A stretch of DNA of 64,000 bases from Pseudacidovorax sp. (GTDB lineage: Bacteria > Pseudomonadota > Gammaproteobacteria > Burkholderiales > Burkholderiaceae_C), in assembly GCF_017991995.1 (NCBI RefSeq), contig NZ_JAGOPN010000004.1:276245-340244 (forward strand). Reading direction: 5' to 3'. The notes under the pieces were generated by a model. That model did no database searches, had not been told where the DNA came from, and was given only the letters and a program-made list of their open reading frames with translations. Positions within the stretch are counted from its first letter, which is position 1. Each line of letters starts with the position of its first letter. This document shows positions 15,111 to 57,243 of this stretch, one piece after another. The translations under genes were made by a program, and so were the position numbers.

Positions 15111-15187
15111 CGCGCGATGGAGCAGTCTGGTAGCTCGTTGGGCTCATAACCCAAAGGTCGGAGGTTCAAATCCTCCTCGCGCAACCA
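15111..15187 (+). tRNA. Initiator tRNA-fMet (anticodon CAT)
   Basis: The 77-nt gene folds as a complete cloverleaf with CCA encoded. The anticodon CAT is at 15145-15147 in the loop CTCATAA, on a stem with three G:C pairs (GGG/CCC). Positions 1 (C) and 72 (A) do not pair. These two traits mark an initiator rather than an elongator tRNA-Met, and the body closely matches E. coli tRNA-fMet. Its 3' half is the attachment site of the prophage, and the prophage recombinase gene ends antisense within it, with its stop codon over the anticodon region. Confidence 0.96.
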
Positions 15188-16727
15188 TCTTTAGAGACCC
15201 GCCGGCTGCAGCAAACAAAAGCTGCTCGGCGGGTTCTTTCATTTGGGCCCAGCTCTCGCCCGTCTCTTCGTTGCGGCAGAGGATGATCTCGCCCAGCAGG
15301 CCGGCCACCACGGGCCGCGCCTCAGCCACGGTACCGGCCAGCGACTCGCGCAGGTTCATCACCAGCCTGCGATAGGCCGCAGCGATCTGGTCTGCGCTGA
15401 TCGTCACCTGCGGCGTCTGCTGCAGCGTCGCCTCCAACGTCTTTCGTTCCAGCTCGGCCGCACGCAGGCGCGTGGCCAGGGCTTCGCTCGCCCCCACCGC
15501 GACGATGGCGTCGACGATGCGCTTGATCTCTTTGTCCAGCTCCGCGCCGCGCCGGCGTGCATCGGCCTGGGCTCGCTCGTGCCCGCCGTCCAGGTCGGCC
15601 ATCAGGCGGCGCACGGTGGTCTGCACCTCGGCCATCGCGGCGGGGCTCAGCAGATCCTCGCGCAGCTCGGCCAGCAGGCGGTGGTCCACGTCCTCGCGGC
15701 GCCAGGTCGCGCTGTTTGGGCATGCGGTCGGGCCCTTGTCCTTGTGGGCGCTGCAGCCGTAGCGCACCGAACTGATGGCGGTAATGGCGCCGCCGCAGGT
15801 CGCGCAGCGCAGCAGGCCGCCGAACAGCGTGGCATGCGGGCGGCCACGGCCCGGCGCGCGCTTGAGCGCGAGCGGCCGCGTGCTGTCCCATAGCGCCTGA
15901 TCGAGGATGCGCAGCTCGGGCGCCTCGCGCACCATCCACTCGGACGGCGGGCGCGCGACGGCGAGGCGCTTGCCCGTCTCCGGGTCCTTCAGCCACTGCC
16001 GGCGGTTCCAGACCACGCGGCCGATGTAGATCTCGTTGTTGAGCAGGCCGTCGCCCATCTTCGGGTTGCCCACCAGCGCGCTCGCGGCCCAGCCGTTACC
16101 GCGTGGACTGGGCACGCCGCGCTCGTTGAGCTTGTAGACGATGCTGCGCAGGGTCGCGCCGGCGGCCACCTGCTCATAGATCCAGCGGACGTGCCGGGCC
16201 TGCTCTTCGTTGATGACGATGCGGTGGCCGCCTTCCTCTTGCACGCTGGCGTAGCCGTAGGTGCGGCCGCCGGCGGCAAAGCCGCGCTCGAACTGACCCT
16301 GCAGGCCGCGGTGGGTCTTCGCGCGCAAGTCGTCGAGGTACAGCTCGTTGACCAGGCCGCGCGCAATTCGCATGACCTTGCGGCCCGAAGCCTGGGTGTC
16401 GTAGCCGTCGGCGGTGCCGATGATGCGGATGCCGCGGTGCTCCAGCCGCTTCACCGCGCGCTCCTGCTCGGCCAGGTCGCGCGTGATGCGGTCGAGGCCT
16501 TCGACGATCAGCACGTCGAACCGATCAGCAAGCGCGTCGGCGAGCAGGGCCTTGCCGCCCGCGCGCAGGGCGACCGGCGTGCTGCCGCTGATGCCCTCGT
16601 CGGCGTGCACCATGGCGATGGCCCAGCCCTCACGCGCGGCGCGCTCGCGGCCGGCGCGCAGCTGGTCGGTGATGCTGTTCTGGCTCTGCTGGTCAGTGCT
16701 GTATCGGGCGTACAGGCAGACTCTCAT
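15144..16727 (-). CDS. Large serine recombinase (prophage integrase)
   Basis: Catalyses site-specific integration or excision through a Ser-DNA intermediate. From ATG 16727 the product is 527 residues: resolvase domain with catalytic Ser10 in YARYSTDQQ, IVEGLDRITRD, a recombinase domain, a zinc ribbon with Cys308, 311, 325 and 336 (CATCGG), then a coiled-coil-like region. A TTG at 16739 would add four residues. The gene overlaps the tRNA by 44 bp, so its last codons (VARGGFEPPTFGL) are antisense tRNA sequence and the TGA lies over the anticodon region. In the excised circle the same frame would run into the attR side and end 14 residues later. P2 itself uses a tyrosine integrase, so this is a mosaic replacement. 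Confidence 0.93.
   Translation of the reverse strand: MRVCLYARYSTDQQSQNSITDQLRAGRERAAREGWAIAMVHADEGISGSTPVALRAGGKALLADALADRFDVLIVEGLDRITRDLAEQERAVKRLEHRGIRIIGTADGYDTQASGRKVMRIARGLVNELYLDDLRAKTHRGLQGQFERGFAAGGRTYGYASVQEEGGHRIVINEEQARHVRWIYEQVAAGATLRSIVYKLNERGVPSPRGNGWAASALVGNPKMGDGLLNNEIYIGRVVWNRRQWLKDPETGKRLAVARPPSEWMVREAPELRILDQALWDSTRPLALKRAPGRGRPHATLFGGLLRCATCGGAITAISSVRYGCSAHKDKGPTACPNSATWRREDVDHRLLAELREDLLSPAAMAEVQTTVRRLMADLDGGHERAQADARRRGAELDKEIKRIVDAIVAVGASEALATRLRAAELERKTLEATLQQTPQVTISADQIAAAYRRLVMNLRESLAGTVAEARPVVAGLLGEIILCRNEETGESWAQMKEPAEQLLFAAAGGSLKMVARGGFEPPTFGL
15164..15187 (+). other. attL: left prophage attachment site in tRNA-fMet
   Basis: The 3' end of the tRNA gene is repeated at 57220-57243. 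Over 24 bp there are three differences; the last 13 bp (CCTCGCGCAACCA) are identical and should contain the crossover. Matching stops directly after CCA on the right side. Confidence 0.85.
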
Positions 16728-16884
16728 GTCGGGCTTCAATGGTCTGGTGGACGAGCTGCCGGGCGAGTAGCTCGATCAGTTGGGCGCGGAAGTGCGCGCG
16801 GTCGGCGCGGGGGCGCATCGTAGGGCTGCCGCGGCCGGCCAGTGATTTCGGCCTCCCTTCGGCGGCGAACTGTCGGACGGTCAA
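16693..16884 (-). CDS. Small basic protein of unknown function upstream of the recombinase
   Basis: The 63-residue frame begins MTVRQFAAEGRPKSLAGRGS. Its ATG overlaps the preceding stop (ATGA at 16881-16884) and its end overlaps the recombinase start, as in a translationally coupled early operon. It is Arg-rich with a possible amphipathic helix (HFRAQLIELLARQLVHQTI). No family is recognised. A competing frame at 16736-16927 is judged a shadow because it lacks such coupling. Confidence 0.5.
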   Translation of the reverse strand: MTVRQFAAEGRPKSLAGRGSPTMRPRADRAHFRAQLIELLARQLVHQTIEARHESLPVRPIQH

Positions 16885-17081
16885 GGCGTGGCCTCCGGTT
16901 TCGTTCTGGCCGCCGCGGCACGTTCACGCACGCGGCGCACTTGCTGTGCGCGGCGCGCTTCCTCGAACGCCGCGGCGGTGTCGGCGCGGGCGGTGGCTGC
17001 GCGCTCTTCGATGAAGGCCGCGATGCGGCGCAGGGCCGCGCTACAGCGCCGGTCGAGGCTGAACACGGGCCGGGCCTTCAT
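16881..17081 (-). CDS. Small Ala/Arg-rich helical protein
   Basis: The 66-residue product begins MKARPVFSLDRRCSAALRRI and is predicted by eye to be a long charged helix (AAFEEARRAQQVRRVRERAA). Its ATG overlaps the stop of the helicase-methyltransferase (ATGA), so the two are probably translated together. No known family; it could be a small partner of the methyltransferase, but that is only position-based. Confidence 0.55.
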   Translation of the reverse strand: MKARPVFSLDRRCSAALRRIAAFIEERAATARADTAAAFEEARRAQQVRRVRERAAAARTKPEATP

Positions 17082-56670: not shown

Positions 56671-56682
56671 ATTACTCCATCT

Positions 56683-57138
56683 ATGGTGGAAGTCATCCCA
56701 TCTGAAGACTCCGTGAGTAAAACGATTGATTCGCCGGAGAAGTGGAACCGAGCTGAGGAAAGGTTCATCGACGAACGAGTGTTTCTGTTCAAGAAACCCG
56801 ACTATGTTGAGTCGGTAGTTTGGCGCAAGTACATGCCGTCCCTAGCTGAGGTGCATGCTTGGGGCTGTGCACGCCAGGCTGAGAAACGCACGACCAAGCA
56901 GGTATGGACCTATGAAGGTGCTGCGACTGCCAACGTTGGCGACATTCGTGACATTCGTACGCAGCATGGCGATTCGGTGGAGGTAGTCCATGATCCATCG
57001 GACGGCCAAGGAGACCATCATGCTCACTTGCAGCTGCGTTTTGGAACGGATGAGCAGCACATCCCGCAGCGGCGGACGGATCTGAAGGAGGCCGTTCTGA
57101 GGCTGTTTACTGCCGTCGACAGGCACTCCTGCCCGTAG
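56683..57138 (+). CDS. Unknown protein, third gene of the cargo operon
   Basis: 151 residues from ATG 56683 (MVEVIPSEDSVSKTIDSPEK), 12 bp after the second gene. Contains EERFIDERVFLFKKPDYVES and a His-rich acidic segment (VVHDPSDGQGDHHAHLQLRF) that could bind metal. The last residues come close to the right attachment site. A GTG or other start could differ by a few codons. No family is recognised. Confidence 0.6.
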   Translation: MVEVIPSEDSVSKTIDSPEKWNRAEERFIDERVFLFKKPDYVESVVWRKYMPSLAEVHAWGCARQAEKRTTKQVWTYEGAATANVGDIRDIRTQHGDSVEVVHDPSDGQGDHHAHLQLRFGTDEQHIPQRRTDLKEAVLRLFTAVDRHSCP

Positions 57139-57219
57139 GAAGTAGGGAAAAGTGTAGCTAAACGTTACTTGATGGCTGTGAGCGGGGGGTCACGGAGGTA
57201 AGGGAGACACGTCTCCAAT

Positions 57220-57243
57220 GTTCGTATCCCCCTCGCGCAACCA
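57220..57243 (+). other. attR: right prophage attachment site
   Basis: The tRNA-fMet 3' end (CCTCGCGCAACCA, 57231-57243) recurs here without the rest of a tRNA; the preceding 11 bp match attL at all but three positions. The bases left of the core are phage attP arm and right of it host sequence with the original tRNA terminator. On the minus strand the phage side encodes the alternative recombinase C-terminus. Confidence 0.85.

Follow-up and report, generated by a model that had tools for sequence, protein, structure and literature searches.

A prophage serine integrase whose C-terminal tail is predicted to be exchanged on integration into tRNA-fMet

Introduction

What becomes of an integrase when the site at which its phage integrates lies within its own gene? 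The question is raised by a 64,000-nucleotide stretch of a Pseudacidovorax sp. genome (contig NZ_JAGOPN010000004.1, positions 276,245 to 340,244; the whole stretch is referred to here as the window), in which a prophage is integrated at tRNA-fMet and the gene for its large serine recombinase (integrase) ends inside that tRNA gene on the opposite strand. As read from the sequence, the phage attachment site attP is embedded in the 3' end of the phage's own integrase gene, and integration into the 3' end of tRNA-fMet is predicted to break this gene in frame at the crossover expected at the attP central dinucleotide. A phage-coded C-terminal tail would thereby be swapped for one read from the tRNA complement, the phage circle and the lysogen encoding two versions of the enzyme. 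What holds serine integrases to one direction is a central question in their biology and in their application as genome tools. Here we consider whether the lost tail is a selected part of the protein, which we regard as very probable, and whether its exchange could act on the direction of the reaction.

Results

The two forms of the integrase gene

The features of the locus are as follows.

15144..16727, minus strand: large serine recombinase (integrase), prophage form, 527 amino acids (open reading frame and Pfam domains)
15111..15187, plus strand: tRNA-fMet (CAT), the integration target, its 3' part overlapping the integrase 3' end antisense (Rfam tRNA, 66.1 bits)
15175..15187, strand not assigned: attL copy of the 13-bp core CCTCGCGCAACCA (exact repeat)
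57231..57243, strand not assigned: attR copy of the 13-bp core (exact repeat)
15144..15185, minus strand: prophage-only C-terminal codons and stop, tRNA complement with the stop over the anticodon
57158..57230, minus strand: P' arm, which in the excised circle would code the rest of the phage-form tail (..GYEHWRRVSLTSVTPRSQPSSNV)
15194..15198, plus strand: attP arm motif GAGAC, integrase side, which reads GTCTC along the integrase gene (sequence and palindrome test)
57211..57215, plus strand: attP arm motif GTCTC, P' side, which reads GAGAC along the integrase gene (sequence and palindrome test)

The original prediction, made from the window alone, had the recombinase frame (16727 to 15144, minus strand) ending antisense in tRNA-fMet 13 residues after a Met, with its stop over the anticodon. 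All of this is seen in the sequence: the final 13 residues, VARGGFEPPTFGL, are read from the tRNA-fMet complement, and the stop codon overlying the anticodon is TGA. The window holds two copies of the core, starting at 15175 and 57231 and equally oriented, and no copy was found on the opposite strand of the window. The attR side had also been claimed to lie in phase across the identical core, and this was borne out when attP was assembled from the attR arm and the recombinase 3' end: the frame was unbroken, giving a phage-circle end VARGGYEHWRRVSLTSVTPRSQPSSNV with 27 residues after the Met (compared with 13 in the prophage form) and a TAG at 57160-57158. The GTCTC at 57211..57215 mirrors the motif at 15194..15198 around the attP central dinucleotide.

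The recombinase carries, in order, PF00239 (Resolvase N-terminal), PF07508 (Recombinase) and PF13408 (zinc-ribbon), all above curated cut-offs; these three serine-recombinase domains are its only Pfam-A matches, with no tyrosine-recombinase domain among them. S10, which we take to be the catalytic serine, is invariant in alignment A4 and at least 90% conserved in alignments A1 and A5.

The phage form in nature

Phage-form tails were collected from two sources, namely 50 contigs without a tRNA after the gene and 12 ends rebuilt from attR (n = 62). The contigs came from three alignment-based scans of IMG/VR, each limited to its best 80 matches, from which the 50 core-crossing integrases without tRNA were used; ARAGORN found a tRNA near the core in none of these 50, one of which (L221) has fewer than 120 nucleotides after the core. 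These tRNA-less viral contigs with a core indicate that the attP form exists in nature. A 10-base core pattern, scanned for in 46 of 47 phage-form records (L233 left out), had a single match in 30, two or three matches in 13 and none in 3. In the first classification the search for the core reached no further than 130 bases from the stop, so that long tails escaped it, and all 22 leftover loci were then reviewed: the long tails L222, L206 and L245 were added together with L248, bringing the set to 62, L311 and L171 were added by hand, 10 were excluded as having no stop before the contig end, and 6 (L216, L218, L234, L237, L238 and the like) as having no recognisable fMet core. A near-duplicate, L178, had been dropped from an earlier set (59 to 58 tails). 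For the attR arms, 12 of 26 element ends were used, the candidates G049, G883 and G550 not being among them.

The phage-form tails are 13-66 residues long, 45 of the 62 falling within 13-21. Six loci (L265, L252, L283, L259, L314 and L215) cross the core in another frame, and their phage form still codes a hydrophobic, strand-like tail. In two records (G1167 and G1191; loci L268/L309 and L321/L250) there are two integrase genes on one contig, ∼38-41 kb apart, positions that would suit a tandem arrangement of prophages, the inner integrase retaining its phage-form tail. Two named phages, Rhizobium phage RR1-A and Microcystis phage Mae-JY30, have a core-like stretch near the integrase end, followed by their own, different tails.

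How far attP reaches into the tail

The centre of the attP palindrome lies 9.5 bases from the first G of the core, the best position in 43 of 58 sites; it falls inside the shared core, with the central dinucleotide as the predicted crossover. The two arms match each other above mixed-phage-arm controls to ∼22 bases per side and are at background beyond. As the palindrome reaches only ∼22 bases from its centre, codons from base 33 after the core start lie outside attP. Within it, the palindromic arms dictate part of the tail, e.g. GAGAC gives RR.

Selection on the phage-form tail

The tails were compared with the same DNA read in the +1 and +2 frames, with shuffled nucleotides and with shuffled residue order. 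Of the 62 tails, 58 have their stop codon 9-27 codons beyond the core, compared with 21 (+1) and 18 (+2) in the other frames. Outside attP, a hydrophobic-x-hydrophobic triplet is present in 55 of 62 (10 and 18 in the other frames; nucleotide shuffles gave a mean of 19.1 and a maximum of 29), and the triplet preceded by a basic residue, [RK]-phi-x-phi, in 32 of 62 compared with 3 and 3. In the 58-tail set this basic motif was found in 30 tails, compared with 2.8 (maximum 9) after nucleotide shuffling and 9.5 (maximum 19) after shuffling of residue order. A hold-out of 19 contigs from outside the loci that had first drawn attention to the motif, the only part of the data independent of that, gave the same direction for stop position (17/19; 7 in +1 and 5 in +2), for the triplet (17/19; 2 and 3) and for the basic motif (8/19; 2 and 2). 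When the 58 tails were weighted by 40 integrase clusters at 60% identity the stop scored 39.0 compared with 12.1 and 12.2, and with 20 clusters at 50% identity 19.0 compared with 5.8 and 4.8.

Codon positions were compared from base 31 after the core start (c+31) in 46 related pairs, aligned without gaps and having members in common: mismatches amounted to 188/381 (49%) at position 1, 170/381 (45%) at position 2 and 247/381 (65%) at position 3, and to 1423/2025 (70%) after the stop. Position 3 is thus near the post-gene DNA and positions 1 and 2 are not, and together with the stop position and the hydrophobic pattern this makes the phage tail look like a selected protein element. A constraint from attP DNA only was rejected outside the palindrome by the stop, the triplet and the codon-position bias. 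Statistically, the phage-form tail is constrained as a protein beyond the needs of attP DNA across a broad family, and its build is a linker, often basic residues, a hydrophobic-x-hydrophobic stretch and an early stop. Two hydrophobic positions of the window tail align exactly with its closest relatives (V-S-L in the window; V-A-I, V-S-I and I-H-I in the relatives).

Prophage-type tails in relatives

All 527 residues of the window recombinase, the tRNA-coded tail included, can be aligned in relatives. At the limits used, and counting the window's own genome at each rank, matches were found in 4/15 genomes of the genus, 10/399 of the family, 10/399 of the order and 6/369 of the class. There were 33 matched loci, a set that holds the same element from two assemblies in two cases (L002/L009 and L003/L018); 24 end on tRNA-fMet, 1 on tRNA-Glu and 8 have no tRNA call, 4 of the latter being cut by the contig end. 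Identity to the window among the relatives ending on tRNA-fMet goes down to 32% (L028). The tRNA overlap is not bound to one tRNA, because in genome G525 the end of a relative (L029) lies antisense in tRNA-Glu instead of tRNA-fMet.

Among viral contigs, 87 loci carry a tRNA-complement tail; in 71 the frame used yields 13 residues, in 15 it yields 6, and 1 locus has another ending. The 6-residue tails are of GGRI type and do not have the hydrophobic-x-hydrophobic pattern. What the prophage tail contains is set by the tRNA complement.

Several observations stand beside these. Nine loci (L189, L193, L205, L208, L236, L318, L326, L327 and L331) have a FEPxTFRL- or FGL-type tail without a complete tRNA and form a possible no-swap clade; with the crossover placed at the anticodon, the palindrome test on the 9 no-tRNA loci gave no clear palindrome centre. 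The integrase of genome G049 (L017, after 3081; L061) terminates in a tRNA-fMet with a break directly past the anticodon, and the attR arm of this genome (22-base match), left out of the tail set, would give the phage tail VAGAGFERWLTPVRIRLTQR. On alphaproteobacterial plasmids (H41-H65), the alignment with relatives spans as much as 100% of the query and takes in the tRNA-coded end, and 27 of 63 plasmid records cover at least 80% of it.

Predicted structure of the two tails

An AlphaFold2 model of a phage-form relative (L284), built from alignment A4 with 45 of 47 sequences (L297 and L233 left out), has an overall predicted local distance difference test score (pLDDT) of 88.4, residues 514-524 forming a disordered linker and 527-531 a strand; the mean pLDDT is 62 for residues 521-530 and 82 for 531-533. 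DSSP assigns a strand only where it is hydrogen-bonded to a partner. The model of the window's prophage form (38 sequences) has an overall pLDDT of 83.0, with residues 509-527 all below 50 (block means 26 and 27) and no strand, i.e. the prophage tail of the window is predicted to be disordered. In a PDB comparison of the L284 model, the aligned part reaches residue 521 at most among the 50 matches listed, so that among these the tail strand lies beyond the matched part, and no fold could be named for the phage tail.

The integrated element

The region between the cores is that of a tailed phage: of its 20 proteins scanned against PHROGs 13 had a match, including terminase large subunit, portal, tail sheath, tape measure, baseplate proteins, tail fibre and endolysin. 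The element (15188-57230) looks like a complete prophage with contractile-tail genes.

Discussion

As read from these sequences, the arrangement is real and widespread, and the lost phage-form end looks like a working, evolutionarily preserved part of the protein. The explanation that we favour, and consider probable, is that attP lies in the integrase 3' end, that a selected phage tail is exchanged on integration and that the lysogen form is biased differently. A tail swap serving as a switch between integration and excision, as the original prediction had proposed, is plausible. According to a passage of PMC5737554, the extreme C-terminus of a serine integrase is near the coiled coil, and a directionality factor fused there alters the reaction direction. 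As one AlphaFold2 model has it, the phage tail could be a short C-terminal beta-strand that folds back onto the enzyme, which would place it close to the coiled coil and the zinc domain, the region in which directionality factors act. There it would serve the integrating form, either (i) by holding the integration mode or (ii) by masking the site of the directionality factor; the lysogen enzyme without the strand would be biased otherwise, e.g. towards less re-integration or greater openness to the directionality factor. That the swap has a regulatory effect on reaction direction we put forward tentatively and with some doubt. The fullest version, a broad clade with a direction switch written in DNA, in which a circle-only strand docks near the coiled coil and holds the integration mode or shields the enzyme from the directionality factor, until fusion to tRNA-fMet removes it and leaves an excision-ready lysogen form, seems to us unlikely as a whole.

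Several points weigh against the favoured explanation. Tail length is variable, and the 14-residue difference of the original prediction, although correct in the window (13 and 27 residues), is not conserved: with phage tails of 13-66 residues and prophage tails of 13 or 6, it was rejected as a family feature. The phage tail of the window is longer than those of its closest relatives, where its last 13 residues (TSVTPRSQPSSNV) have no counterpart, and 4 of the 62 tails extend beyond 27 codons. Part of the data tested had already served to notice the motif, and the shared members and gapless comparison of the 46 pairs bear on the codon-position bias. The predicted strand and the predicted disordered end belong to AlphaFold2 models of different proteins built from different alignments. 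No complete tRNA lies behind 12 of the 34 tRNA-complement tails with enough downstream sequence; some of these loci may keep the tRNA-complement tail permanently and never swap, or another insertion may adjoin in the tRNA. As to whether relatives keep both tails, a check proposed with the original prediction, they keep a phage-form tail under protein-level selection, and their prophage tail is tRNA complement. Finally, the prophage end FGL itself fits the loose hydrophobic-x-hydrophobic pattern, so that the two tails may be equivalent.

The rival that survives best keeps the selected tail and dispenses with the switch: the tail would aid the integrating enzyme or its stability, and the lysogen form would be a tolerated by-product of the position of attP. 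This is a real possibility, if short of an even chance, as it accounts both for selection on the phage tail and for the varied prophage endings (71, 15 and 1 of 87), and the last 21 residues of phiC31 integrase are termed non-essential in a passage of PMC5737554. However, because the lysogen must excise with the altered integrase, selection would be unlikely to overlook the change.

That the tails are equivalent, the tRNA-complement frame happening to give a hydrophobic ending (TFGL) and the enzyme working in both states, appears quite unlikely. Besides the fit of F-G-L to the loose pattern, this frame is the one found in 71 of the 87 prophage-type loci, and the ends assigned to frame 1 or 0 (86 of 87) do not include the frame that reads through the whole tRNA; against this, 15 of 87 use the GGRI-type frame without the pattern, and the prophage tail lacks the basic-hydrophobic motif and was modelled as disordered. 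We hold it very unlikely that the tail acts as a signal for degradation or solubility, limiting the integrase in the phage state and leaving a longer-lived lysogen form. Many phage tails do finish in short hydrophobic or alanine ends (RVA, IAC, FAA), but in a number of them other residues follow the motif (RIPLLPASDGE, RIPLRRA), so that there is no common C-terminal signal, and a degradation signal was rejected for want of a consistent last-residue pattern among phage tails. A pure run-on, with the gene open across attP by chance, neither tail of any importance and conservation of attP DNA only, is scarcely credible: the palindromic arms do set part of the tail, but outside the palindrome it is contradicted by where the stop falls, by the hydrophobic pattern and by the bias among codon positions. 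It was rejected in comparisons with the other two frames and with shuffled nucleotides and residue order, after weighting by cluster, and from the codon positions.

If loss of the 15-30-residue tail does shift the preferred direction, it would be a natural and transferable control element, and many annotated prophage integrases would bear a host-derived C-terminus that differs from the integrating form. Even without a switch, integrase sequences of these relatives taken from lysogens would be the wrong form for integration tests.

The original prediction knew of no switch using this arrangement, a view that does not hold for tyrosine integrases. Mx8 Int and the SSV integrases are tyrosine recombinases, and in SSV integration splits the gene into separate parts; in BPs-type integration-dependent immunity the altered gene is that of the repressor. 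The C-terminus of Mx8 IntP is altered on integration (title of Tojo 1996; review passage, PMC4383910, PMC6070905), and the same review passage describes the altered enzyme as still active with changed specificity and terms it a molecular switch. In both systems attP lies inside the integrase gene and integration supplies a new 3' end, here in frame; the present enzyme differs in belonging to the large serine recombinases and in losing a tail that shows selection in many relatives. The integrase genes of SSV-type (fusellovirus) elements extend across attP as the present one does, according to a passage of PMC4383910, but here the integrase body stays whole and the tail alone is exchanged. In BPs-type mycobacteriophages attP is likewise described, in PMC4557955, as lying in a coding gene, so that integration changes the encoded protein; there it is the repressor that is changed and here the recombinase, attP sitting at the end of the integrase gene. 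The structurally solved large serine integrases of SPbeta (YokA), Bxb1, phiC31 and A118 have the three Pfam domains in the same order and the same body fold, and differ in that, among the matches listed, the L284 tail strand at 527-531 lies beyond the aligned part. No report of an integration-swapped tail in serine integrases was found in searches of an open-access library. The principle of the swap is already known from Mx8, and what is new, as far as those searches tell, is its occurrence in a large clade of serine integrases with a selected, phage-only tail.

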